Source: Campylobacteraceae bacterium
Lineage (GTDB): Bacteria; Campylobacterota; Campylobacteria; Campylobacterales; Sulfurovaceae
Assembly: GCA_027014605.1 (NCBI GenBank)
Contig: JALWDJ010000005.1
Location: 1 to 56,164, forward strand
Direction: 5' to 3'
Length of the DNA: 56,164 bases
Shown here piece after piece: positions 198 through 13,603 of this stretch. The notes below the pieces were generated by a model. The model was not told where the DNA came from, did no database searches, and was given only the letters and a program-made list of their open reading frames with translations. The position numbers and the translations under genes were made by a program. How positions within the stretch are numbered: the first letter of the stretch is position 1; every line of letters begins with the position of its first letter.

Positions 198-538
198 TCA
201 TAAATTATTAGAAAATACTAGATTTATTTTAGCAGTTAGTTAACCTTTTTGTTTTTTTATCAAAAAATCTTCAAGAAAACTCCATACTCAATACGGGGAT
301 GAATTGAAGAAAATTTAATATTTAATAAAGTTATTTTTTGTTTTATTTATAAATAGTTCTTTAACTAGAGGTAGTTCACAATTCTAAACCCCAAGAGGTG
401 ATAGAACTTATTTTGGTAAGTACTTTAATATTTATACCTATTTCGTGAATATTAGGAGAATTTTACTAACAACTTAGTAACACTAAAATATTAAAAGTAG
501 TTAAAAGTAAAATTTTATCTATCTTTTCAAACTAATTT
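198..538. other. gene-free AT-rich stretch between the recombinase relic and the A2M gene
   Basis: No plausible coding frame was found here. It holds one inverted repeat (268-310, listed separately) and AT-rich sequence before the large gene. No clear TATAAT with a matching -35 box was found before 539. If the minus-strand relic is part of an insertion sequence, this stretch may include one end of it, but I could not identify element termini. Confidence 0.5.
268..310. repeat. inverted repeat, possible stem-loop
   Basis: The arms tcttcaa (268-274) and ttgaaga (304-310) are perfectly complementary. Inside them ctcc and gggg can extend the pairing with one G-U pair. It lies upstream of the recombinase relic, so it could belong to an end of the former element or be a small structured transcript. 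The function is unknown and a short inverted repeat can arise by chance in AT-rich DNA. Confidence 0.3.
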
Positions 539-3500
539 ATGATAAAATTCAACCAAAAAGGTTTTATCGTGTTGAGGAGATATTTTCTTCTTTTAATAAC
601 TATTATAATATATGCAAACCCCTCTACTATTCAAACTGTGCCATTAGATGAGCCATTTGAAATAGAGAGTAAGAAATCTGCATTTGATATCAATATTTTA
701 TATACACATAAAAAACTTTTAAAATGTAATCCTAAATTAAATGCAGTATATAGAATTATAGATGCTCATAAAATAAAGATTATTCCAAAAGAGTCACTTC
801 AGAGTAGTACAATATATAGCTGTCGATATAAAAGAGATATTATTAAATTTAAGAGTGTTAAATTTAATATTATAGATGCACACTTTTTTAAAAGAGGAGA
901 GTTAATAAGAGTTGAATTTAATGATAAAATTGAACTCAATAATGTAAAAAAGTATATCTCTATTATAAAGAGAGATAGACTTAGTAAAACTAAATTATCA
1001 TATAGCATTAGTCAAAATAATAATACAACTCTAGTATTAAAGATAGATGAACCAATATCAAACCATCCAATAGAATTACTAATAGATAAAAATCTAACAA
1101 ATATTAATGGTAAGAGTTTAAATAGTGATTTTAGTAAGATTTTTAATATTAAAAATTCATTTAATGTTAAATTGGATGATAAAAAAGAGGCTATGGAGAT
1201 TATTGATTCTCCAAGATTTGTATCTTCAGATAGTGGGGAGTTAGCTATTAGATTATACTTTGATGATACTATAGATAATAAAATAGAAAATTTTATAGAG
1301 ATTGATGGTATTGATAATTTTAGAGTAGATTCAAATAACTATGTTGGATATAGAGAGCGAAAGAGATTTAAACTATCTGATAATGCCTACTACTATACAG
1401 ATATAATATCTTCAGAGTTTAAACCTAACCATACATACCATTTAACTTTAAAAAAAGGATTAAAGAATTATAGAGAGTTAAAGCATGATATAAGATATAC
1501 TTTAAAGAGTGGAGATTTAGAAAAAAATATTATATTTGATAAGGATAAAATATATATATCAAATATGGGGGAGTTTGGTTTTTCATCTGTAAACCTCAAT
1601 AGTGTTACTTTAGTGGTAGAGAGAGTCTTAGATGATAATTTAAGATATTTTGTAAATTTCACAGATGCAAATAGATATGATGTAGATAAATATTTAGAGG
1701 AGGTATTTACTAAAGAGATAAAACTTCATAATATAAAAAATAAAATTGTAAAACAGAAATTTAAACTTTCAAATTTAAGTAATCAACTCCCTTATGGTAT
1801 ATATAAAATAACAATGAGATATAAGAGTCATAAAGAGGAGATTGCTAAAAGTAAAATTTTATTTATATCAAATATTGGAATAAGTGCAAATTTATCAAAA
1901 AATCAAGCCTTTATTTTTGTAAATAGATTAGATAGTGCTAAACCTTTAGTCAGTGCTATGGTATATCTATATAGTGCAAATAATGAATTAATAAGCTCGG
2001 CTAAAACAGATAAGTATGGAGTAGTTGATATGGAGATTAATGGATTATTATATAAAAGTCCAAAATCAATTATTGTTGAGACAAAAAATGATAGAAACTT
2101 TTTAGCTCTTAATAAAACCATATCTTCACCATCTCCAGAGAATATTTTAGAAAAAGCTAAAAGGTTTAGTGCTAATATATATCTTCAAAGTAAAATTGTA
2201 AGACCTGCATCTAAAATTAATGCTTTAATTACTGTTAAAGATAGAGAGTTTATATCTGCAAAAAAGATACCTATTAAGATACTTTTTAAAAGAAAATATG
2301 GAAAAGTATTGAGTAGTAAAATTTATCATACTGATGATTATGGTCTGATTGATTATAGTTATCAGTTAGATAGTATAGATAGAACAGGAGATTATAAAAT
2401 AATAGCATATATTGATAAAAAAGAGATAGGTTCTATATCTTTAAAAGTAGAAGCTTTTAGACCTCCAAAGATTGAAAACTATATAAGAGTTACCAAAGAT
2501 AACTATTTAAATGGAGAGTTAATTGAGCTTAATATTAGCTCCAACTATCTATTTGGGACTCCATCATCAGGACTTAGTGGAAAAGTAACGTTGAATGCAA
2601 CTCCAATTGATTTTGTACTTACTCAATATAGTGGATACTCATTTACTAATGAAAACTTAGAGGAAGAGGATACTATTAACTATATAGATTATAGTGAAGA
2701 TATTAGATTAGATAGTAATGGAGAGTTAAATATGGTTATTCCAATTAATATTAAAAAAAGAGCTCCATCAATATTAAAAGGGATTATTGGAGTAACTATT
2801 ATGGATGGTAATCAACCAGTATCAGCATATAAAACAGTAAAAATATTTCCATATAAAGATATGGTTGGAGTTAGATTAGATAATAGTCATCTTAAAATAG
2901 GTGATAGATTAGATGGAAGTGTAATAGTCATTGACCCATTAACAGGAGAACCTATTAGTAATAGAGATTTATATATTACTATTAAGAAGATAGATTGGCA
3001 TTATAGTTATATTAATGGAAATAGTAATTGGGAAAAAGAGAGTCGAATAGTAGATAGTTTTAATATAAAATCAAATAGCTCTTTCTCAAGAGTGATAAAT
3101 CAGAGTGGAGATTATACTATTGAAGTTGATGACCCTTTAAGTGGACATAGTAGTAGTAGCTCATTTGATATTTGGTGGGATGATTATAATAATATATCCC
3201 CAAAAGATAATCTAAAATCTGTAGAGATAAAATTTGAGGATAAATTGTATAAAAATGGAGATGTAATTTTTACTAAAATTAAATCTCCAATTTTAAATGG
3301 TGAGTTACTTCTAAGTTTAGAAGATGATAGAGTAGAAGGGTATAAATTAATTCATATAGAAAAGGGAGTAGCTGAAGTTGAAATGCCAATACTATTTGAT
3401 ATTAAAAAGGGAGCATATCTACATGCAACTGTATATAGACCAAGCAATACCTCATCTAAACTTATCCCATTTAGGGCTATTGGATATAGATATATAAAAC

Positions 3501-6202
3501 CTGATAACTCATCTCATAAGATAGCTGTAAAAATTCAAGCTCCAAAAGAGACAAAATCAAAAAGAGTAGTAAAATTAAATATAGTAACCAATAAAAAGGC
3601 TAAAATATTAGTAAGTGTAGTAGATAGAGGAATACTTCAATTAGTAAATCAAAAAAAGCCTAAGATATTTGATTTTTTTAATAAACAGTTAGATAAAGAG
3701 ATAGCCTATTATGACCTATATGACCAACTTATGGCATATCTTGTAGAGGGAAAACTTATAGATTTTGGAGCTGGAGATATGCTTTTAAAAAATAGAAAAA
3801 AACATTTAGCACCAGATTTAGCAAAAAGAGTTAAACCTTTTATGATTTGGAGTGGAATTATTGAAGCTAATAGTAATACTACAACTATAGGTATTAAGAT
3901 ACCTGAGTTTAATGGAAGAGCCTCTATTGTTGCTATTGCTATAAATGAAGATAGTATTGGAGTAGCATCTAAAGATATGGTTATTAAAGATGATATAATG
4001 ATAAAACCATCATATCCACTATATCTTCTAAAGGGAGATAATATAAAAGTTCCTATAAGAGTGTTTAATACTACTAAACAAGATAAAAATATAACTCTAA
4101 ATTATATTACAACTAAAAATATAGAGTTTAATATTAAAGATAAAAATATAACCATTCCATCAAATAGCTCAACTCTAATAGAAGCTACCCTTAAAGCTAA
4201 AGAAGAAGGAAAAGCTAAGATAACTATTAAAGCATATAAGGTATCAAATAGTATTGAGTTACCAATATATAATCCTTATGCAATAAGCACTAAAACATTT
4301 AAAGGTATTACTAATAAGAAAATGACTTTTACTATTCCAAAAGAGTATATAGGTGCAGAGGCATATATATATCTATCTGATAATCTTATTGGAGTTTTAG
4401 CAAATGATTTAAAATATCTAATTAGATACCCTTATGGGTGTGCAGAGCAGATTTCATCTAAGATTTTAGCAATGCACTATGCTAGAGCCTTTTTACATAA
4501 TAATGCTCTTATATCAGATAGTAAAAACTTTATACGACAAGGTGTTAAAAGATTAAGAGATATGCAAAATAGTTATGGAGAGTTTAACTATTGGCAGGGA
4601 GAGAATAATGTTAATCCTTATGCATCACTATATGCCTCTGAGACTCTTTTAGACTTACATAGAGATGGTGTATGGGTTGATAGAGATACTTTAGATAAAG
4701 TTATTAAGGCACTAAAATCTATTGTTTTAAAGAATGATAACTATTTAGGAACTTATACTAGTTTTCATAGAGTCTATGCAGGATATATTTTAGCTAAAAA
4801 TGGAAAATTAAATGAGGGAATAGCAAATATGTTATATGAAAAGGGTTTATATGAAAATTATTTTATATCTAAATATTATATGTCTGCTATATTAAAAATG
4901 CAAGGAAGAGAGAAAGAGGCACAAAAATTGTATAATAGTGTTGGTTATAGTTTATCATCTCATCTAAAGAGTAGATACTCAAAATATAGTGGTAATTTTG
5001 AATCAAATATAAGAGATATGTTTATTCATTTTATTATTAAAACTAAATACTTTAAAAAAGAGATAAATGATTTAGCCATAATTAAAAAATCATTTGATGA
5101 GCTATACTCAACTCAAGAGAAGGCATTGGCTCTAAAAGCTATAAGTATCTATCTTGGAAAACCTAAGAGTGCTAAAATTAATGTTACTTTAAATATTAAT
5201 GGCAAAGATAGAAATTATACTAAACCTACAGTAGTAGATATTGATAATATCAAATCTAATAAGATAATTCTAATCCCAAACTCTAGTGCCTTAGCATATA
5301 CTATTGAACTAGTAAAACATCTACCTAAAAAGATAAAAAATAGTATAAAAAGGAATGAGAGATTAGGAATAAAAAGAGAGTTTATTAATGAAAATAATAG
5401 AACTATTAATCTAAAAAACATTCATTTAGGAGATAAAATATACTCAAAAGTTACTATCTCAAATTATGGAAAAATAAATAGTGTTGTGATAAATCATAGA
5501 GTTCCAGCCTGTTTAACTATTATAAATGATAAAGAGCCAAATAGAAAATTTAGAGATATAAATATTAATAGGGAGTATAGAGATATTAGAGATGATAGAG
5601 TCTTAGATTTTATAGACTTACCTAAAAAGCAGATATATAATAGAAAGAGTAAAAGATATATAGTAAAATCAAATCAAGGGGTAATCTTTACATCACTTTT
5701 AGCTACAACTAAGGGAGAGTGTAAACTCCCTGCCATAATAGCAGAGTCTATGTATGATAATAGAGTTAATAATTATGCAAAAGAGGCTAATAGTATTATT
5801 GTAAAAGATAAAAAAGTTAAAAAAGAGGAGAGTTTAGAAAAAAGAGCAAAAGCATTAGTTAAAAAACTATACTATAGAGAGATGCAGAGTAGTAATCCAG
5901 CAGATTTTATAGAGCTATTTTCATATCCTATTGATAGCTATTTTAATAAAAAGAGTTTTACAAGAGCTGATCTTTTAAAAGATAAGGCTAAATATCTACA
6001 CGATTGGAAAGTAAGAGAATACTCTAATATAAAATTAAAAACTATAAGTTTAGATAAAAAATCCAAAGAGATAAAAATTAAAATTACATTTAACTATAGA
6101 TTAAAAAATGGGAAAAAAAAGTTAAAGGGAGTTAGCAAACATCTACTTACTATAAAAAAGATAGATGGAGATGTTTTAATCACTAAAATAGAGGTGATTT
6201 AA
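539..6202 (+). CDS. alpha-2-macroglobulin family protein with thioester motif (YfhM-like)
   Basis: Bacterial alpha-2-macroglobulins are periplasmic protease traps: cleavage of a bait region exposes a thioester that links the attacker covalently. This 1887-residue protein starts with a hydrophobic signal segment (about residues 14-27), has a long beta-rich MG-domain region, an A2M domain near residues 1100-1190, and the thioester motif Gly-Cys1301-Ala-Glu-Gln1304 at the start of the helical thioester domain. Its length is a little above the usual 1500 to 1700, partly from a C-terminal extension of about 90 residues. I see no lipobox Cys, unlike E. coli YfhM. The start is uncertain: ATG 539 has no Shine-Dalgarno, whereas GTG 569 (residue 11) follows aaaaagg at a good distance and gives a tidier signal peptide. 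The usual partner gene pbpC is not adjacent; a defence cassette follows instead. Confidence 0.88.
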   Translation: MIKFNQKGFIVLRRYFLLLITIIIYANPSTIQTVPLDEPFEIESKKSAFDINILYTHKKLLKCNPKLNAVYRIIDAHKIKIIPKESLQSSTIYSCRYKRDIIKFKSVKFNIIDAHFFKRGELIRVEFNDKIELNNVKKYISIIKRDRLSKTKLSYSISQNNNTTLVLKIDEPISNHPIELLIDKNLTNINGKSLNSDFSKIFNIKNSFNVKLDDKKEAMEIIDSPRFVSSDSGELAIRLYFDDTIDNKIENFIEIDGIDNFRVDSNNYVGYRERKRFKLSDNAYYYTDIISSEFKPNHTYHLTLKKGLKNYRELKHDIRYTLKSGDLEKNIIFDKDKIYISNMGEFGFSSVNLNSVTLVVERVLDDNLRYFVNFTDANRYDVDKYLEEVFTKEIKLHNIKNKIVKQKFKLSNLSNQLPYGIYKITMRYKSHKEEIAKSKILFISNIGISANLSKNQAFIFVNRLDSAKPLVSAMVYLYSANNELISSAKTDKYGVVDMEINGLLYKSPKSIIVETKNDRNFLALNKTISSPSPENILEKAKRFSANIYLQSKIVRPASKINALITVKDREFISAKKIPIKILFKRKYGKVLSSKIYHTDDYGLIDYSYQLDSIDRTGDYKIIAYIDKKEIGSISLKVEAFRPPKIENYIRVTKDNYLNGELIELNISSNYLFGTPSSGLSGKVTLNATPIDFVLTQYSGYSFTNENLEEEDTINYIDYSEDIRLDSNGELNMVIPINIKKRAPSILKGIIGVTIMDGNQPVSAYKTVKIFPYKDMVGVRLDNSHLKIGDRLDGSVIVIDPLTGEPISNRDLYITIKKIDWHYSYINGNSNWEKESRIVDSFNIKSNSSFSRVINQSGDYTIEVDDPLSGHSSSSSFDIWWDDYNNISPKDNLKSVEIKFEDKLYKNGDVIFTKIKSPILNGELLLSLEDDRVEGYKLIHIEKGVAEVEMPILFDIKKGAYLHATVYRPSNTSSKLIPFRAIGYRYIKPDNSSHKIAVKIQAPKETKSKRVVKLNIVTNKKAKILVSVVDRGILQLVNQKKPKIFDFFNKQLDKEIAYYDLYDQLMAYLVEGKLIDFGAGDMLLKNRKKHLAPDLAKRVKPFMIWSGIIEANSNTTTIGIKIPEFNGRASIVAIAINEDSIGVASKDMVIKDDIMIKPSYPLYLLKGDNIKVPIRVFNTTKQDKNITLNYITTKNIEFNIKDKNITIPSNSSTLIEATLKAKEEGKAKITIKAYKVSNSIELPIYNPYAISTKTFKGITNKKMTFTIPKEYIGAEAYIYLSDNLIGVLANDLKYLIRYPYGCAEQISSKILAMHYARAFLHNNALISDSKNFIRQGVKRLRDMQNSYGEFNYWQGENNVNPYASLYASETLLDLHRDGVWVDRDTLDKVIKALKSIVLKNDNYLGTYTSFHRVYAGYILAKNGKLNEGIANMLYEKGLYENYFISKYYMSAILKMQGREKEAQKLYNSVGYSLSSHLKSRYSKYSGNFESNIRDMFIHFIIKTKYFKKEINDLAIIKKSFDELYSTQEKALALKAISIYLGKPKSAKINVTLNINGKDRNYTKPTVVDIDNIKSNKIILIPNSSALAYTIELVKHLPKKIKNSIKRNERLGIKREFINENNRTINLKNIHLGDKIYSKVTISNYGKINSVVINHRVPACLTIINDKEPNRKFRDININREYRDIRDDRVLDFIDLPKKQIYNRKSKRYIVKSNQGVIFTSLLATTKGECKLPAIIAESMYDNRVNNYAKEANSIIVKDKKVKKEESLEKRAKALVKKLYYREMQSSNPADFIELFSYPIDSYFNKKSFTRADLLKDKAKYLHDWKVREYSNIKLKTISLDKKSKEIKIKITFNYRLKNGKKKLKGVSKHLLTIKKIDGDVLITKIEVI

Positions 6203-6236
6203 TGATTAGCTATCTAACCTGTTATTAAAGTTTAGA

Positions 6237-6242
6237 TATAAT
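6237..6242 (+). promoter_or_regulatory. -10 box TATAAT before the restriction-modification cassette
   Basis: The segment tttagatataattttt sits 25 bases before the methyltransferase ATG. It has the same aGATATAAT form seen in front of several other genes in the window. No good -35 hexamer is visible 17 bases upstream, which is usual for Campylobacterota sigma-70 promoters. Confidence 0.45.
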
Positions 6243-6266
6243 TTTTTTAAATTCATAAGGATTAAA

Positions 6267-7835
6267 ATGGTCTATCAGATAAATATTCAAGAAGCTTCAA
6301 CTATTGCTACAAACTTATCAAATAAAAAGGTTACGCAATCGAATATATCATATTTAATCCAATATGGAGTTATAGATACAATAAATAGAAATAATACAGT
6401 TTATCTACACAAAGAGCAGTTTTATAACTATTTCAAAAGACAGAAATCAAAAGAAAAAGAGTATAAATTAAAATTTGGCAATGATATAAATTGGCAACTC
6501 TCATTTGAAAACTATAAAGAGAGTGAAACAACTAAGCATATTCATAGATTACACCCCTATAAAGGTAAATTTATTCCTCAATTAGTCGAGTATTTTTTAG
6601 ATAACCATATTGACAACTTTAAAAAAGAGATATATTTTAAAGAAAATGATATTGTTTTAGACCCATTTTGTGGAAGTGGAACAACACTTATTCAGGCAAA
6701 TGAGCTTGGTATCCACTCTATTGGTATAGATATATCACCATTTAACGCTTTTATTGCAAATACAAAACTATCAAAGGTAAATATTGAAATATTAGAAAAG
6801 AGATTAGATGAGATTAATAAAAAATTGGATAACTTTACAAAAAATAGAGATAATATTACGTTTGAAAATAGACTTCTATATGAGTTAAATAGATTTAATA
6901 GTAGATATTTCCCTACTCCTGAATTTAGAAAAAAGGTTAGAAAGAGAGAGATAGATGATAAAATTTATGGTAGAGAGAAAGAGAAGTTATTTTTACCTAT
7001 TTATCAAGAGCTATTAAGTAACTATAATATTCAAATATCTTCAAATAGTAATAGTAGTTTTTTAGATAAGTGGTATATTAAGCCCATCAGAGATGAAATA
7101 GATTTTGTTTTTAAAGAGATAAAGGCAATAGAGAATCAAGATATAAAAAATATTTTAGCCTTAATCTTAAGCAGAACAATTAGAAGTTGTAGAGCTACAA
7201 CCCATGCCGATTTGGCTACATTGAGAGAGCCTCAATTAACACCTTATTATTGTAGAAAACATGGCAAGATTTGTAAACCTCTATTTACAATTAAAAATTG
7301 GTTTAATAGATACTCAAAAGATACAGTTAAAAGATTAAAAGAGTTTGATAATTTAAGAAGAGATATATTTAGTAGGTGTCTAATTGGAGATAGTAGAGAC
7401 ATAGATATTTTAAAAAAAATTAAAGATGAGAATTTTAGAGAATTGCTACAAAAACAAAAAATTAAAGGTATTTTTAGCTCCCCTCCCTATGTTGGATTGA
7501 TAAATTATCATGAACAGCATGAGTATGCTTATGAGCTTTTTGGTTTTAAAAGAGATGATGAGAAGGAGATTGGACCACTATTTAAAGGAAGAGGTGCAAA
7601 AGCAAAAGAGGAGTATATAGAGGGAGTGAGTCAAGCTTTAATAAATGCAAAAAAGTATCTTATTAATGATTTCAATATATTTCTTGTTGCAAATGATAAA
7701 TTTAACCTCTATCCAATAATTGCAGAAAGAGCAGGTCTGAAAATAGTAGATGAGTTTAAAAGACCTGTATTAAATAGGGTTGAGAAGGATAGAAATCCAT
7801 ATAGTGAGACTATTTTTCATATGAAAGGAGTATAA
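6267..7835 (+). CDS. DNA methyltransferase of a type II restriction-modification system
   Basis: This should methylate the host's copies of the restriction site to protect them from the nuclease encoded two genes downstream. The S-adenosylmethionine motif is Asp132-Pro-Phe-Cys-Gly-Ser-Gly-Thr and the catalytic motif IV is Ser405-Pro-Pro-Tyr408. SPPY is most typical of N4-cytosine enzymes, though some N6-adenine enzymes have it. About 270 residues, presumably holding the target-recognition region, lie between motifs I and IV, an alpha-like order. The first 60 residues resemble a helix-turn-helix segment. At 522 residues it is longer than many type II methylases. An aagga Shine-Dalgarno at 6257 supports the ATG. 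Only 4 bases separate its stop from the next gene, whose Shine-Dalgarno (aaaggag) lies inside the last codons here, so the three genes appear co-transcribed. Confidence 0.85.
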   Translation: MVYQINIQEASTIATNLSNKKVTQSNISYLIQYGVIDTINRNNTVYLHKEQFYNYFKRQKSKEKEYKLKFGNDINWQLSFENYKESETTKHIHRLHPYKGKFIPQLVEYFLDNHIDNFKKEIYFKENDIVLDPFCGSGTTLIQANELGIHSIGIDISPFNAFIANTKLSKVNIEILEKRLDEINKKLDNFTKNRDNITFENRLLYELNRFNSRYFPTPEFRKKVRKREIDDKIYGREKEKLFLPIYQELLSNYNIQISSNSNSSFLDKWYIKPIRDEIDFVFKEIKAIENQDIKNILALILSRTIRSCRATTHADLATLREPQLTPYYCRKHGKICKPLFTIKNWFNRYSKDTVKRLKEFDNLRRDIFSRCLIGDSRDIDILKKIKDENFRELLQKQKIKGIFSSPPYVGLINYHEQHEYAYELFGFKRDDEKEIGPLFKGRGAKAKEEYIEGVSQALINAKKYLINDFNIFLVANDKFNLYPIIAERAGLKIVDEFKRPVLNRVEKDRNPYSETIFHMKGV

Positions 7836-7839
7836 AAGA

Positions 7840-9579
7840 ATGGATAGAGTTATTAAAGGTTATGTTAAAAATTTTAGTGAACAATTTGGATTGATATATA
7901 GTGAAAGTAATATGAGTAATTTATTTGAAGATTTTACAACTTTTTGTTTAGTATCAAATAAATTAATTAATGACACTTTGGATTATAATGAAATTGTATT
8001 AACTAATACAAAAAAATATAAAGGTATTGATAATATTGCTTTTATCGTAAGTGGTAAAATTATCAGTAATATTAAAGAATTAGAAGAAATTTTTGAAAAT
8101 AATGGTTATGTTGATATATTATTGATTGCAATCCAATCAAAGACATCAGAAAGTTTTAGTAATAGTGAAATAGCAAATTTATTAGATACATTTTTAGATT
8201 TTTTAAATGAAAAGCCACAATATCCATTAACTAAAGAAGCTAAAGATTTGCATGATATGTTAATGTATATTTTAGATAATATGGCAAAAATTAATAAATT
8301 TGATACTGAAATTTATTATGTAACAACAGGTCAATATAATAATGATAAAGTTATTGAAGTGACAATAAAAAATAAAAGAGATTTAATATCTCAAAAAGGT
8401 ATTTTTAAAGATGGTATTATTAATGTTGATATGATTGATAAAAATTATTTAATGAAATTATTTGATAAAATTAATAGACCATCTAAAGCAGAATTTATTT
8501 TTAAAGATAAAACAAGTATTTCATTTGATAATGGCGATATTAAAGAAGCTTATTTTGGATTATTATCTTTTGAAGAATATAGAAAAATTTTAATCGATAA
8601 AGAAAATGATAAAATTAGAAATCTTTTTTATGATAATGTTAGAGATAACTTAGGGAACAATGAAGTAAATAACGATATAGATAAAACTTTAAAAAACAAA
8701 GAGTTTGATTATTTTCCATTATTAAATAATGGAGTTACAATTGTTGCTGAAAAAAATTTAGGTAGTGGAAATAGATTTATATTAGAAAACTTTCAAATTG
8801 TTAATGGTTGTCAAACATCCAATAAGTTATACGAAAATAGAAATATTGAAGGATTAGAAAATTTATTAATTCCAATAAAACTAATTATTACTAATGATGA
8901 AATATTAAAAAATAAAATAACAATAGCAACAAACAATCAAACAGAAATAAAGGAAGAACAATTAGTAGCACTAACAGAATTTCAAAAAGGATTAGAAGAA
9001 TACTATAATTTAATGTCTAATGAAAAACCTATTAAATTATATTATGAAAGACGGGCTAATCAATATGCTGGAAACTCATCAATTATGAAAAAGAGTATAG
9101 TTGATTTAAGAGAACAAATAAAAACTTTTGTAGCAATATTTTATGAAGAACCCCATAATTCTTCTGGATATTTTGGTAAGATTTTTAAAGAATATAGTAA
9201 AAAACTATTTATTCAAAATCATAGTTACGAGCCTTATTATATGTGTGGATTAATGCAATATATATTTAAAGATTTTATTAATAGAAAACAAATCGATAGA
9301 AAATATAATAAAGCAAGATATCATCTATTTATGATATATAGAAAGATAGTTGAAGAGGAAACCTTTAAAGAGATATTGTTAGTTCAAGATAAAAAAATAA
9401 GAAAATATTCAGATGCTATTATAAAAACATTGATTGATACTAAAAATGCTTTAAGCAATTTTAAAAAATCAATTGAATTATTAGAAAAAACTTCTATTAA
9501 TTTAAATGACCAAAAAGAGTTTTATAAAAAAAATTCTACTAATATAATTTTAGATAAATATAAAGAAGAATATAAATAA
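7840..9579 (+). CDS. AIPR family (abortive infection phage resistance) protein with nuclease-like N-terminus
   Basis: The central region carries AIPR-family signatures: FPLLNNGVTIV (residues 292-302) and FQIVNGCQTS (318-327), followed by the conserved helical part with YYERRANQYAG. Upstream, Gly62-Ile-Asp64 and, after a beta strand, Gln99-Ser-Lys101 fit the D...(E/Q)xK spacing of PD-(D/E)XK nucleases, as in other AIPR proteins. So this may be a second nuclease rather than a passive partner. AIPR genes are associated with abortive infection and often sit beside restriction-modification genes, but their biochemistry is poorly known. Codon use differs from neighbours: GAA is used for nearly all Glu (about five GAG), while flanking genes use GAG freely, which suggests separate acquisition. 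The last base of its TAA is the first base of the next ATG. Confidence 0.8.
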   Translation: MDRVIKGYVKNFSEQFGLIYSESNMSNLFEDFTTFCLVSNKLINDTLDYNEIVLTNTKKYKGIDNIAFIVSGKIISNIKELEEIFENNGYVDILLIAIQSKTSESFSNSEIANLLDTFLDFLNEKPQYPLTKEAKDLHDMLMYILDNMAKINKFDTEIYYVTTGQYNNDKVIEVTIKNKRDLISQKGIFKDGIINVDMIDKNYLMKLFDKINRPSKAEFIFKDKTSISFDNGDIKEAYFGLLSFEEYRKILIDKENDKIRNLFYDNVRDNLGNNEVNNDIDKTLKNKEFDYFPLLNNGVTIVAEKNLGSGNRFILENFQIVNGCQTSNKLYENRNIEGLENLLIPIKLIITNDEILKNKITIATNNQTEIKEEQLVALTEFQKGLEEYYNLMSNEKPIKLYYERRANQYAGNSSIMKKSIVDLREQIKTFVAIFYEEPHNSSGYFGKIFKEYSKKLFIQNHSYEPYYMCGLMQYIFKDFINRKQIDRKYNKARYHLFMIYRKIVEEETFKEILLVQDKKIRKYSDAIIKTLIDTKNALSNFKKSIELLEKTSINLNDQKEFYKKNSTNIILDKYKEEYK

Positions 9580-10343
9580 TGAGCAGTATAAAAGAGCTAT
9601 TAAAAAGCGTAATAAGAGATAAATTTCATAATTATCAAAAGACAAAAGAACCAGCATATATGCCCTTTCATACAGCTCTACTTGGAAAAGATAGATTGGC
9701 ACTATACCAATTTATACACTCTTTAAATACAAATTTTGGAACAACAATTTTTGAGCCTGTTGGAGTGGAACTTGCAAAAAATTGTTTTGAAATAGTTAAA
9801 CGACAAGTTAATGTGAGTTGTGAAATAAGTGAAGAGGTTTTAAAAGAGATAGATATTATTATAGATAGTTTAATAGTAGCTGATAGACAACCAGATAAAA
9901 ATTATGAAATTGATAGAATAAAACAGAAATTAAATATAGGAAATTTTAGAAAAGTAAAATTAACAAAAGTAGATTTATATTGTCAAAATGCTAATAATTA
10001 TTATCTTTTTGACATTAAAACAGCAAAACCAAACAGAGGAAGTTTTTTAGAATTTAAAAGAACACTTTTAAAATGGACTGCAACAATTTTAACTCAAAAT
10101 CCAAATGCAAATATTCATACATTAATAGCAATACCATATAATCCATACTATCCAAAGCCATATAGTAGATGGACTATGGCTGGAATGCTTGATTTAAAAT
10201 ATGAACTATTAGTTGCAGAAGAATTTTGGGATTTTCTGGGTGGAGATGGCAGTTATCAATATCTTTTAAATATTTTTGAAGAGGTTGGAGTTGAGATGAG
10301 AGAAGAGATAGATAGTTTTTTTAAAAAATTTAAAAATAAATAG
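9579..10343 (+). CDS. TdeIII-like type II restriction endonuclease
   Basis: The 254-residue protein has the features I associate with the TdeIII/MjaII restriction family: MPFHTALLGKDRLALYQFIHS near the start, then SLNTNFGTTIFEPVGVELA, and later IAIPYNPYYPKPYSRWTM, LLVAEEFWDFLGG and a C-terminal FEEVGVEMREEID. The catalytic PD-(D/E)XK core is probably Asp132, Asp145 and Lys147 (FDIKTAK). Characterised relatives are, from memory, assigned to GGNCC; that specificity is not proven here, and GGNCC sites do occur in the window (for example 7572-7576). It overlaps the AIPR gene by one base, so expression is probably translationally coupled. Placing the nuclease last would let methylation begin first. 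Confidence 0.82.
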   Translation: MSSIKELLKSVIRDKFHNYQKTKEPAYMPFHTALLGKDRLALYQFIHSLNTNFGTTIFEPVGVELAKNCFEIVKRQVNVSCEISEEVLKEIDIIIDSLIVADRQPDKNYEIDRIKQKLNIGNFRKVKLTKVDLYCQNANNYYLFDIKTAKPNRGSFLEFKRTLLKWTATILTQNPNANIHTLIAIPYNPYYPKPYSRWTMAGMLDLKYELLVAEEFWDFLGGDGSYQYLLNIFEEVGVEMREEIDSFFKKFKNK

Positions 10344-10362
10344 TTATAACAAGGATAAATTT

Positions 10363-11628
10363 ATGAGAGAAGAGACATTAGCAGTTCATGCAGGTTATAT
10401 TAAAGATAAAAACTCAACAATGGCAGTTCCAATATATCAGACAACTGCTTATGAGTTTAGAGATACAACACATGCAGCCAATCTATTTGAGTTAAAAGAG
10501 CTTGGAAATATATATACTAGACTCATGAATCCTACCACAGATATATTTGAGAAGAGATTTTCTGCCTTAGAGGGTGGAGTTGCAGGTGTGGCAACTGCTT
10601 CAGGAATGTCTGCTATATTTTATGCTATTGCAAATGTGGCAGAGGCAGGGGATAATATTATTGTAGCAAAACAGGTCTATGGAGGAACAACTACTCTAAC
10701 AAGCCATACTATTAAGAGATTTGGAATTGAGAGTAGATATTTTGATATAAATAATCCATTAGAATTAGAAGATTTAGTTGATAATAGAACAAAGCTTATT
10801 CTATTTGAGAGTATATCCAATCCAAGTATTGATATAGCCGATTTTGATAAGATTACAGAGATTGCCAATAGATATAATATTTTAACTTGTGTGGATAATA
10901 CTGTAGCAACTCCTATACTATGTAAACCATTAGAGTTAAATTGTGATATTGTAGTACATAGTGCTAGTAAATATACAACAGGGCAGGGTTTAGCAATAGG
11001 TGGAATTATTGTAGAGAGAGACAATTTAAAAGATAAGATAATAGATAATCCTAGATATTATCACTTTAATGAGCCAGATGAGAGTTATCATGGATTGATA
11101 TATACAGATATTCCTCTTCCTCCATTTACTCTAAGAGTTAGATTAGCACTACTTAGGGATTTAGGTGCAACTCCTAGTCCATTTAACTCATGGCTATATA
11201 TTCAAGGGTTAGAGACTCTTCCTCTTAGAATGAGACAACACTCAGACTCTGCCCTTAAGATTGCAAAGTTTTTAGAACAACATCCAAAGGTAAAGAGTGT
11301 AAACTATGCAGGATTAAAATCAAATAGAAACTACTCTTTAGCTCAAAAATATTTTCCAAAAGGGCAGAGTGGACTACTCTCATTTGAAGTTAGCTCATTA
11401 GAGGAGGCAAAAAAGATTGCAGATAGCACAAAAATTTTTAAATTGGTTGTAAATATTGGAGATAGTAAATCTATTATTACCCACCCAGCAAGTACAACAC
11501 ATCAACAACTTTCAGCTCAAGAGTTAATTGATGCAGGAGTTCCAGAGGGGCTTATTCGACTTAGTGTTGGATTGGAAAATAGCGATGATTTGATAGAGGA
11601 CTTAAAAGAGGCATTAGATAAAATTTAA
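10363..11628 (+). CDS. metY: O-acetylhomoserine sulfhydrylase
   Basis: A PLP-dependent enzyme that makes homocysteine from O-acetylhomoserine and sulfide, the direct sulfhydrylation route to methionine. At 421 residues it has the expected length for MetY and is longer than MetB or MetZ. Visible family marks are the N-terminal ETLAVHAGY, VPIYQTTAYEF, YTRLMNPTTD, the ASGMSAI cofactor loop, and the PLP lysine Lys203 in HSASKYTTGQG. An aagga Shine-Dalgarno precedes the ATG. It follows the restriction gene by 19 bases on the same strand but is a housekeeping gene, so it probably marks the edge of the inserted cassette. Read-through from the cassette may contribute to its transcription. Confidence 0.93.
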   Translation: MREETLAVHAGYIKDKNSTMAVPIYQTTAYEFRDTTHAANLFELKELGNIYTRLMNPTTDIFEKRFSALEGGVAGVATASGMSAIFYAIANVAEAGDNIIVAKQVYGGTTTLTSHTIKRFGIESRYFDINNPLELEDLVDNRTKLILFESISNPSIDIADFDKITEIANRYNILTCVDNTVATPILCKPLELNCDIVVHSASKYTTGQGLAIGGIIVERDNLKDKIIDNPRYYHFNEPDESYHGLIYTDIPLPPFTLRVRLALLRDLGATPSPFNSWLYIQGLETLPLRMRQHSDSALKIAKFLEQHPKVKSVNYAGLKSNRNYSLAQKYFPKGQSGLLSFEVSSLEEAKKIADSTKIFKLVVNIGDSKSIITHPASTTHQQLSAQELIDAGVPEGLIRLSVGLENSDDLIEDLKEALDKI

Positions 11629-11671
11629 TTTTTTACAGAAAAAATAGTTACTTTAAAGTTAGTTTAAGTTT

Positions 11672-11695
11672 AAGTGGCTATAATTTCAGCCACTT
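11672..11695 (+). promoter_or_regulatory. perfect inverted repeat enclosing a TATAAT box before tRNA-Phe
   Basis: Arms aagtggct (11672-11679) and agccactt (11688-11695) pair perfectly over 8 bases around an 8-base centre. TATAAT at 11679-11684 starts on the last base of the left arm and is well placed to serve the tRNA at 11718. The same repeat lies 43 bases after metY and could also form a 3'-end hairpin in its mRNA. No U-tract follows, so it is not a standard intrinsic terminator. No strong -35 box is seen. Confidence 0.45.
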
Positions 11696-11801
11696 CAATT
11701 AAGAAGTACATTCTCTCGGCTCCATAGCTCAGTTGGTAGAGCAAAGGACTGAAAATCCTTGTGTCGGCGGTTCGATTCCGTCTGGCGCCACCACTTCAAT
11801 T
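11690..11801. repeat. 11-base direct repeats flanking tRNA-Phe
   Basis: The sequence ccacttcaatt occurs at 11690-11700, overlapping the hairpin upstream of the tRNA, and again at 11791-11801, where its first three bases are the tRNA's CCA end. The copies are 101 bases apart and bracket the tRNA. There is no integrase gene nearby, so the meaning is unclear; it could be chance or the trace of a past duplication. Confidence 0.4.
11718..11793 (+). tRNA. tRNA-Phe (anticodon GAA)
   Basis: A full cloverleaf of 76 bases with encoded CCA. D stem GCTC/GAGC, anticodon stem AAGGA/TCCTT around CTGAAAA, and T stem GGCGG/CCGTC with loop TTCGATT are all present. The anticodon GAA reads UUU and UUC. The acceptor stem GGCTCCA/TGGCGCC pairs except at position 4-69, where T faces C (11721 and 11786). 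This is either a real mismatch or a sequence error. Confidence 0.95.
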
Positions 11802-11903
11802 TTCATTCAAATATCTTATCTTATAGTCTAAAACTTAAATAAATATTAAAATAAAATTCTAATTTAAACTATATATAAATAATATTACAATAGTATATTA
11901 ATT

Positions 11904-12647
11904 ATGAAAAATAAGTTATATGAAAGATTTAAGAAGGGTATTGCTATGATAGAGTTAATATTTGCTCTAGTCATTATGGGAATTGTACTGCTATCTGCAC
12001 CTATGTTAATTCAACAGTCTGTTAAGAGTGGATATGTTACTTTACAACAAGAAGCAATTGCTGCAGCCTCATCTCATGCAGGTATACTTGTTGGAAAACA
12101 TTGGGATGAGGGGGATGCAAATAATACAACAGGAGTTGCACCTATTATCACATTAAACACTCAAGAGCCAAATTCACCTTTCACTTTTGGTGGAATTATA
12201 GATGTAAATACATCAAGTAGGACTTCTGCTATTGCAGATAATAATATATCAGCCTCTCCTATAGGAACAGATGGAAATGAGACAACTCCTGATTTATATG
12301 ATGATATTGATGATTATAATAATAAAGATTTAAATCTTACCATATTTAATGGTGAGGCTACTACTGCAGATGTTGGAGAGTATGTTGACCAAAATATTAC
12401 TATTAAAACTGTAATAACATTTGCAAATGATAGAAATAGAACAGATAGTGACTTTAATAACTCAGTAGTAGATGTTAATAATATATATCTAAATAGAGAT
12501 TTAGGTGGAGTAGAGAGTAATATAAAATTTATACACATAAATTTAACAACTCAAAATACAACTATTCCTGAGTTAGAGAAAAATATTACGCTAGATACTT
12601 TTTCATGTAATTTAGGTACATATACATTAGGTGAGGGACAGTTTTGA
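11904..12647 (+). CDS. type IV pilin-like pseudopilin
   Basis: The N-terminus carries a class III prepilin signal: a short basic leader ending at Gly12, then IAMIELIFALVIMGIVLLSAP, with Glu at position +5 of the mature protein. Such proteins are cut and N-methylated by a prepilin peptidase and assembled by type II secretion or type IV pilus machinery. The remaining 215 residues are polar and Asn/Thr-rich with no family I recognise. ATG 11904 has no clear Shine-Dalgarno, but the leader length fits. It opens a set of three overlapping pilin-like genes, and its stop overlaps the next start by 4 bases. No secretion ATPase, inner-membrane platform protein or peptidase gene is in the window. Confidence 0.75.
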   Translation: MKNKLYERFKKGIAMIELIFALVIMGIVLLSAPMLIQQSVKSGYVTLQQEAIAAASSHAGILVGKHWDEGDANNTTGVAPIITLNTQEPNSPFTFGGIIDVNTSSRTSAIADNNISASPIGTDGNETTPDLYDDIDDYNNKDLNLTIFNGEATTADVGEYVDQNITIKTVITFANDRNRTDSDFNNSVVDVNNIYLNRDLGGVESNIKFIHINLTTQNTTIPELEKNITLDTFSCNLGTYTLGEGQF

Positions 12648-13603
12648 TTAGAAGAGGATTTTCACTTATAGAGGTCGTTTTTGTATTAGTTATTTTAGGT
12701 ATTGTAGCTTCTATTGCATCACAAATTATTGTGCAAGTCTATGAGAATTATATTTTACAAAGAGCTATATATAATGTGAGTAGAAAGACTGAACTTATAG
12801 CAAATCAGATAGTAAATCGTTTAACATATAGAATGGAGGGGACAACCATATCTAAAGATCATCAAGCATTTTTAAATGGAGCTGTAACTTCTAATGATTG
12901 GTTACCAATTGAAGATGTACCTGTTGGAGGAGATAAATATACTACTATTGAATGGATAGGATATGATAATGATAGTTTCGCATCAGACACAAATCCAAAT
13001 TGGAGCGGAGTTGCTAATTATGAGTATGATGTAAATAGAAGTAGATTTGTAACTCCAGGTTCTACTTTAAATAAAACTGCCACTATTATGTCAAATCTAT
13101 CTAATGGAAAGGTAGATTTAACTATAAATAGACCAGCAGGTTTATTATTTATTGAAAATGATAACTATTATACAGATACTAAAGAGTATAGTCCACTATG
13201 TATGGGAATGATACCAGAATTAGCAACATCTACAAGAGATTGTATATTTCCTGTATATAGTGATACAAATAACTCTTTAACCTTTACTAGAAATAGAGAT
13301 ACAAATCATACGATTAGACCTAAAATTATTACAGAGAGATATAAATTAGCATGGAGTGCTTATGCCATTGCACCAGAGCCAAATGCAAATGGGCTATTTA
13401 ATTTAGTATTATATTCAAACTATCAACCATGGAATGGGGATAGTTATCTTGATATGAACACAACTAAACATACTCTAATGACTAACTTATCTGTATTTAA
13501 ATTTTCTGAAAATGGGGGAATAATTCATTTTAAACTTTGTGCTACAGAGGAGTTAGGAGATACTAATATTAGTACATGTAAAGAGAAGGTGATAATGAGA
13601 TGA
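12644..13603 (+). CDS. type IV pilin-like pseudopilin (GspJ-like position)
   Basis: The protein begins MIRRGFSLIEVVFVLVILG, a textbook prepilin cleavage site (Gly5, then FSLIE with Glu at +5) and hydrophobic helix. The 319-residue body is unusually long for a major pilin and fits a minor pseudopilin, with several Cys pairs in the C-terminal half. The start is TTG at 12644, overlapping the previous gene by 4 bases (TTGA). The gagg sequence at 12632-12640 is the probable Shine-Dalgarno, and no ATG lies close enough to give a prepilin leader. The third gene overlaps its end by ATGA, so the three are translationally coupled and probably form one pseudopilus-tip complex. Confidence 0.75.
   Translation: MIRRGFSLIEVVFVLVILGIVASIASQIIVQVYENYILQRAIYNVSRKTELIANQIVNRLTYRMEGTTISKDHQAFLNGAVTSNDWLPIEDVPVGGDKYTTIEWIGYDNDSFASDTNPNWSGVANYEYDVNRSRFVTPGSTLNKTATIMSNLSNGKVDLTINRPAGLLFIENDNYYTDTKEYSPLCMGMIPELATSTRDCIFPVYSDTNNSLTFTRNRDTNHTIRPKIITERYKLAWSAYAIAPEPNANGLFNLVLYSNYQPWNGDSYLDMNTTKHTLMTNLSVFKFSENGGIIHFKLCATEELGDTNISTCKEKVIMR

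Follow-up and report, generated by a model that had tools for sequence, protein, structure and literature searches.

The window, by which we mean the whole stretch of 56,164 nucleotides analysed here, contains on its forward strand a bacterial three-gene operon (6267-10343) that is a phage defence. Its first gene (6267..7835) codes for the type II N6/N4 DNA methyltransferase of a TdeIII system (PADLOC MTase_II, E 3.2e-218; PF01555, E 1.3e-14), its middle gene (7840..9579) for P0001, a 579-residue protein of the AIPR/AbiU type (PF10592, PADLOC AbiU), and its last gene (9579..10343) for a TdeIII-type restriction endonuclease (PF09520, E 5.5e-82), all on the + strand. TdeIII systems are type II restriction-modification (RM) systems whose methylase and RE_TdeIII genes share an operon, and the pair is present in many genomes. 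According to the junction sequences, the AIPR gene starts four bases past the methylase stop codon, with a GAAAGGAG-like ribosome-binding site rated good ahead of it, and its own stop codon overlaps the TdeIII start codon in TAATG.

AIPR proteins form a large and widely annotated phage-defence family, to which we found no activity assigned. P0001 matches the AIPR model over residues 263-527 (E 4.2e-39; 135.5 bits for a cut-off of 25), the PADLOC AbiU model over residues 2-550 (E 3.7e-102, 341 bits) and PHROG 1841 'Abi-alpha' (E 4.5e-69). It resembles the AIPR, AbiU1 and 'Abi-alpha' proteins over its full length and shares their association with RM operons, where the frequent occurrence of AIPR genes was noted earlier (PMC2292703, PMC3506569). 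Searches with P0001 returned no NCBIfam family and, in a sequence search of the PDB, nothing at E <= 1. Homologues were collected from genomes, plasmids, phages and viral contigs, and 39 of them, 24-47% identical to P0001, were aligned. P0001 as a single sequence retrieved none from the viral contigs; queries built from alignments did. Some AIPR genes stand alone on mobile elements, such as the phages Fels-2 and Miryou and conjugative plasmids.

The history of the locus is recorded in a close relative (G015, locus L368) that has neither the methylase nor the AIPR or TdeIII gene, and in which the flanks are joined with only 7 bases between them. In the DNA alignment, window positions 476-6206 correspond to 878-6637 of that locus (87%) and positions 10332-12686 to 6645-9000 (90%), which delimits an inserted block at 6207..10331 (no strand assigned). 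Given this empty site, gain or loss affected the three genes together here, as one 4.1-kb block. The block has a gene for an alpha-2-macroglobulin-like protein on one side and one for an O-acetylhomoserine sulfhydrylase on the other, and no integrase or transposase gene is found inside it. The same gene order occurs in the Nitrospirae GWF2_44_13 and Brocadia WS118 metagenome-assembled genomes (MAGs).

A preliminary description of the locus had proposed, from codon usage, that the middle gene has an origin separate from that of its neighbours. The count behind it was accurate, as the AIPR gene uses GAA 44 times and GAG 5 times; its 10% GAG is the lowest share of the 46 open reading frames of the window, which together have 57%. 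The flanking genes had been portrayed as using GAG often, which is clearly so for the methylase (13 GAA, 27 GAG) and only moderately so for TdeIII (12 and 7); the bias of the AIPR gene yields p = 2.5e-8 against the former and 0.028 against the latter (Fisher). Its GC content is 20.5%, below the 27% of both flanking genes, and its GC3 is 9.5%, where the methylase gene has 19% and the TdeIII gene 12%. We then compared 37 other AIPR loci, 20 from this phylum, 8 from named plasmids or phages and 9 from IMG/VR, with their four nearest genes. GC content is below that of the neighbours in 37/37 loci and GC3 in 36/37, and the GAG share is low in 20/20 loci of the phylum and in 5/9 from IMG/VR. AIPR GC nevertheless follows that of the host, with 0.25 beside 0.36 and 0.52 beside 0.66. 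AT-richness is thus a trait of the AIPR family that does not prove a separate donor, and after this comparison we rejected codon usage as proof of a foreign origin. The claim of a separate origin fails on this argument and also because the three genes moved together here; what stands of it, as shown by gene content, is independent exchange of the middle gene over longer times. In the AIPR loci numbered L051-L070 and L203-L222, the AIPR gene is always AT-richer than its neighbours and still tracks host GC.

The same description had suspected a nuclease in front of the AIPR domain, on the basis of Gly62-Ile-Asp64 and Gln99-Ser-Lys101, both of which are present in the translation, and this idea held up when structure and conservation were analysed. 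AlphaFold2, supplied with the 39-row alignment, modelled full-length P0001 with a pLDDT of 90.7 and a pTM of 0.82, and residues 1-217 alone (7840..8490, + strand) with values of 94.6 and 0.90. The top structural match is FokI, both for the whole model (Z 9.5, rmsd 3.8, 146 residues aligned) and for the domain (Z 9.4, rmsd 4.0, 150 aligned). It is followed by MspJI (Z 8.7 and 8.4, respectively), while Avs4 reaches 7.9. Most other ranked matches also have the PD-(D/E)XK fold (BspD6I subunits, EcoT38I, CdiA-CT, HamA, Card1, Can2, LmuA, McrC, Shedu, Cap4, Bse634I, Rpb5). The fold is called from VIA-align Z values, of which only some exceed 8, and unrelated proteins such as acetyl-CoA carboxylase score Z 5-6; with Foldseek by itself, neither the whole model nor the domain had a match at E <= 0.001. 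The domain model has the alpha-beta-beta-beta-alpha-beta core of the superfamily. In an hhalign comparison with a profile of Mrr proteins from this phylum, the FE, GID and QxK motifs come out in register at E 1.3e-4 and a probability of 53%, and a longer Mrr alignment places the Mrr 'ITT' strand on the 'VTT' of AIPR. The Pfam Mrr_cat model does not match P0001, and hhalign found nothing against ParB, DndB and TdeIII profiles. Taken together, computation establishes a PD-(D/E)XK restriction-nuclease fold, probably of the Mrr-like PD-QxK kind, as the predicted structure of residues 1-217.

In this model, the putative active-site residues are where they are expected in PD-(D/E)XK nucleases, the second strand carrying an acidic residue and the third a (D/E/Q)xK motif. 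Asp64 (8029..8031, + strand), the predicted metal-binding catalytic residue, lies in the strand formed by residues 63-70 according to DSSP, and Gln99-Ser-Lys101 (8134..8142, + strand) ends the strand 91-101. Glu30 (7927..7929, + strand), on helix A of the nuclease core, aligns with the FE of Mrr. Asp64 and Gln99 are conserved in 39/39 homologues and Lys101 in 35/39, and Phe29-Glu30 is found in all 38 homologues that reach this position. A G[ILVM]D...[QE]xK pattern arises in 2.2% of shuffles of residues 1-140, so the motif exceeds chance; conservation is the stronger proof. A second clade of AIPR proteins, encoded in the slot between methylase and TdeIII genes (G204, G318, G226, G086), has the textbook form, GID...ExK. 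Among distant AIPR proteins of the phylum, some retain D...QxK, and a group of long, 680-residue proteins lacks QxK, which limits the nuclease proposal to the AbiU-like branch rather than all AIPR proteins. The four homologues that deviate at position 101, with Glu or Asp, are encoded on phage contigs (L123, L131, L170, L184); their Asp64 and Gln99 are intact, and they are perhaps inactive or altered nucleases.

The N-terminal third of P0001 is, very probably, a domain that cuts DNA and has the fold of restriction enzymes. It shares with the Mrr, MspJI and FokI domains the fold and the E-D-(Q/E)xK motif order, and with MspJI, an Mrr-like enzyme with a PD-QxK site (PMC12707154), the PD-QxK variant. 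It also resembles the Mrr-like effector domain of the Avs type. In contrast to these proteins, AIPR has its nuclease-like domain fused to a ParB/sulfiredoxin (Srx)-like region and a helical C-terminus, not to a methylation-binding or STAND module, and it is missed by Mrr_cat.

The region that follows is harder to read. In the comparison of the whole model, residues 225-375 (8512..8964, + strand) match PadC (Z 6.5), ParB (6.2-6.4) and Srx (5.6), as well as Noc and KorB. Nearly all matches listed for this region are ParB/Srx proteins, although the best one (Z 6.5, rmsd 3.6, 99 residues aligned) is below 8. When the middle region was compared with ParB, DndB and GmrS by hhalign, no similarity was detected; the DndB profile, built from few sequences, scored a probability of 0.8%, although DndB was reported to share the AIPR domain (PMC3506569). 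With Z values below 8 and blank sequence profiles, the resemblance to a ParB/Srx fold is suggestive only, and we consider it a lead. The conserved turn Asn322-Gly-Cys-Gln-Thr326 (8803..8817, + strand), between the end of a strand and the start of a helix, is found in all 38 homologues from Asn322 to Gln325 and in 37 at Thr326. It sits where ParB has GERR, DndB DGQHR and GmrS DGQQR, with no profile similarity to nucleotide motifs of the GERR, DGQ(H/Q)R or GCHR type, and the T364-N-x-Q367 sequence is reminiscent of the ENxQR of ParB. An NTP site and the ParB/Srx fold have been assigned to GmrS (PMC4619093), and the analogy suggests an NTP switch in AIPR. The C-terminal region, residues 420-579 (9097..9576, + strand), is helical in the model according to DSSP.

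Gene content shows that the cargo between methylase and restriction gene does swap independently of the two over longer times. Many loci of the phylum have their methylase and TdeIII genes side by side. An AIPR gene separates them in the window and in four other loci of the phylum, as well as in two loci of other phyla (L001, L002), and it is found downstream of TdeIII in two more. Elsewhere, the slot is filled by other genes: G194 has a GmrSD gene there (L337; PF03235 and PF07510), three loci have a BsaWI-type RM pair, and G164 has a gene for an AriA-like ATPase. Pairs of related systems are telling in this respect. G320, which has no cargo, and G311, with a BsaWI pair, are 99.3% identical in the DNA of the methylase and 98.3% in that of TdeIII, yet differ by 2 kb of cargo. 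Likewise, G285 (BsaWI pair) and G318 (AIPR) share 95% and 94% identity over the two genes, respectively, and G194 (GmrSD) and G226 (AIPR) 89% and 91%. In a TdeIII tree, the AIPR label has to change four times or more along branches that are well supported; as the tree places L334 and the pair of L206 and L332 on very long branches, we rely on the near-identical pairs only. The slot is not confined to TdeIII systems either. In G024, which belongs to the window's own genus, the endonuclease and methylase genes of an NgoPII system have an AIPR gene between them, and so do the Dam and DpnII genes of both G429 and G332; the intervals concerned in the DpnII and NgoPII systems are L214 3135-6591, L215 4093-7583 and L222 3041-6669. 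We found no description of cargo exchange between the methylase and restriction genes of type II systems in a literature search that was not exhaustive. The type I hsd loci of Campylobacter jejuni carry variable accessory genes, rlo and mlo, between their RM genes (PMC5183652); the AIPR slot differs from them by its location between the two genes of type II systems. The loci with other cargo are L326, L328, L337, L338 and L339, and the AriA-like ATPase has no evident AriB with it in the slot. L206 and L332 encode a diverged TdeIII-like protein of 355-366 residues and have their AIPR gene downstream rather than between methylase and restriction gene.

Several other explanations of the middle gene need to be considered. 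An N-terminal HEPN RNase domain was predicted for AIPR proteins (PMC3506569), and P0001 might accordingly be a toxin that aborts infection by cutting RNA. We regard this as very improbable, because the N-terminal model is alpha/beta with PD-(D/E)XK topology and not a helical bundle, and no R-x(4-6)-H motif occurs anywhere in the protein. HEPN was rejected for P0001 on these grounds, and the published assignment appears wrong for its branch of the family, for which a probable Mrr-like nuclease domain is predicted in that place. The domain might also have kept its fold and lost catalysis, serving in DNA binding or sensing only, as the AIPR proteins without Lys101 or QxK could indicate. All catalytic positions are retained in P0001 and in 35/39 homologues, however, and the invariance of Asp64 and Gln99 would be hard to explain without catalysis, so that a dead domain is quite unlikely and catalysis likely.

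The neighbourhood of the gene raises two more possibilities. AIPR could be an accessory or regulatory subunit of TdeIII that, for instance, changes the specificity of the enzyme or keeps it from acting, with a nuclease-like domain that works only in complex. The tight operon with its overlapping stop and start codons would agree with this, and so would the recurrence of AIPR in the middle of TdeIII, NgoPII and DpnII systems. Nevertheless, most TdeIII pairs of the phylum do without AIPR, including some that are 98-99% identical in DNA to pairs with other cargo, unrelated nuclease families occupy the same position, and on phages and plasmids AIPR is found by itself. It follows from the stand-alone genes that AIPR need not be a TdeIII subunit and, together with the AIPR-less pairs, that neither needs the other; a subunit role thus seems unlikely. 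Somewhat less so, but still improbable, is a recent and separate arrival of the gene from an AT-rich donor, with a function unrelated to its neighbours. Its GC, GC3 and GAG share relative to the flanks point that way, as does the absence of AIPR beside the nearest TdeIII relative (G104, 75-76% identity). The same depression of GC in 37/37 loci of very different hosts, tracking host GC, speaks against it, as do the identical three-gene order in the Nitrospirae and Brocadia MAGs and the single empty site that spans all three genes.

We thus favour the view that the middle gene probably codes for an anti-phage nuclease of the AIPR/AbiU type, gated by NTP and carried as second-line cargo by the TdeIII operon. 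Its N-terminal Mrr-like PD-(D/E)XK domain (Glu30, Asp64, Gln99-x-Lys101) would cut nucleic acid, most likely DNA and possibly RNA; we infer both the reaction and the substrate from fold and active site. The probable ParB/Srx-like domain, which would bind NTP, might gate the nuclease, with the helical C-terminal part following it. Made from the same operon as the methylase and TdeIII, AIPR would act as a second-line defence enzyme. As for its trigger, we can only guess. It might be phage DNA that escapes TdeIII through modification, as for type IV enzymes, or failure of the RM system, in which case AIPR would be a guardian, a term applied to PrrC and PARIS (PMC12707154). Both would fit the company found in the slot, since GmrSD is a type IV enzyme and the AriA of PARIS resembles the product of the G164 gene. 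It is also conceivable that the methylase spares the host from AIPR. In Lactococcus, the LlaKR2I methylase was reported to be necessary to protect the host from AbiR (PMC2661086), a parallel that lies in the coupling of a defence protein to an RM methylase.

An analogy for the proposed architecture is provided by GmrSD, BrxU and SspE (DUF262 and DUF1524), which combine a ParB/Srx domain with a nuclease domain in one chain, as AIPR probably does, GmrSD being the combination of ParB/Srx and HNH that fills the same slot in G194. AIPR differs from them in having PD-(D/E)XK instead of HNH and NGCQT instead of DGQQR, and no sequence similarity was detected. By extension, many AIPR proteins may be NTP-gated PD-(D/E)XK nucleases with Mrr-like and ParB/Srx domains, acting from within type II RM operons as guardians or in the manner of type IV enzymes, and the space that separates methylase from restriction gene may serve RM systems in general as an exchange slot for second-line defences; we offer this generalization tentatively, as something that could well turn out otherwise. 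With Asp64 and Lys101 as a candidate active site, the family becomes open to direct tests. The slot also offers a route to discovery, whereby near-identical RM flanks are compared and the cargo between them is read for new defence genes.

Two of the related loci deserve mention for their state of preservation. The AIPR gene of the Brocadia MAG (L002 1145-2859) has a frameshift close to codon 284 that divides it in two, through either gene decay or an assembly error. A Campylobacterales MAG (L003 1-1000) contains a decayed cassette with a methylase gene 82% identical to that of the window, the last 60 codons of the AIPR gene and no TdeIII gene.
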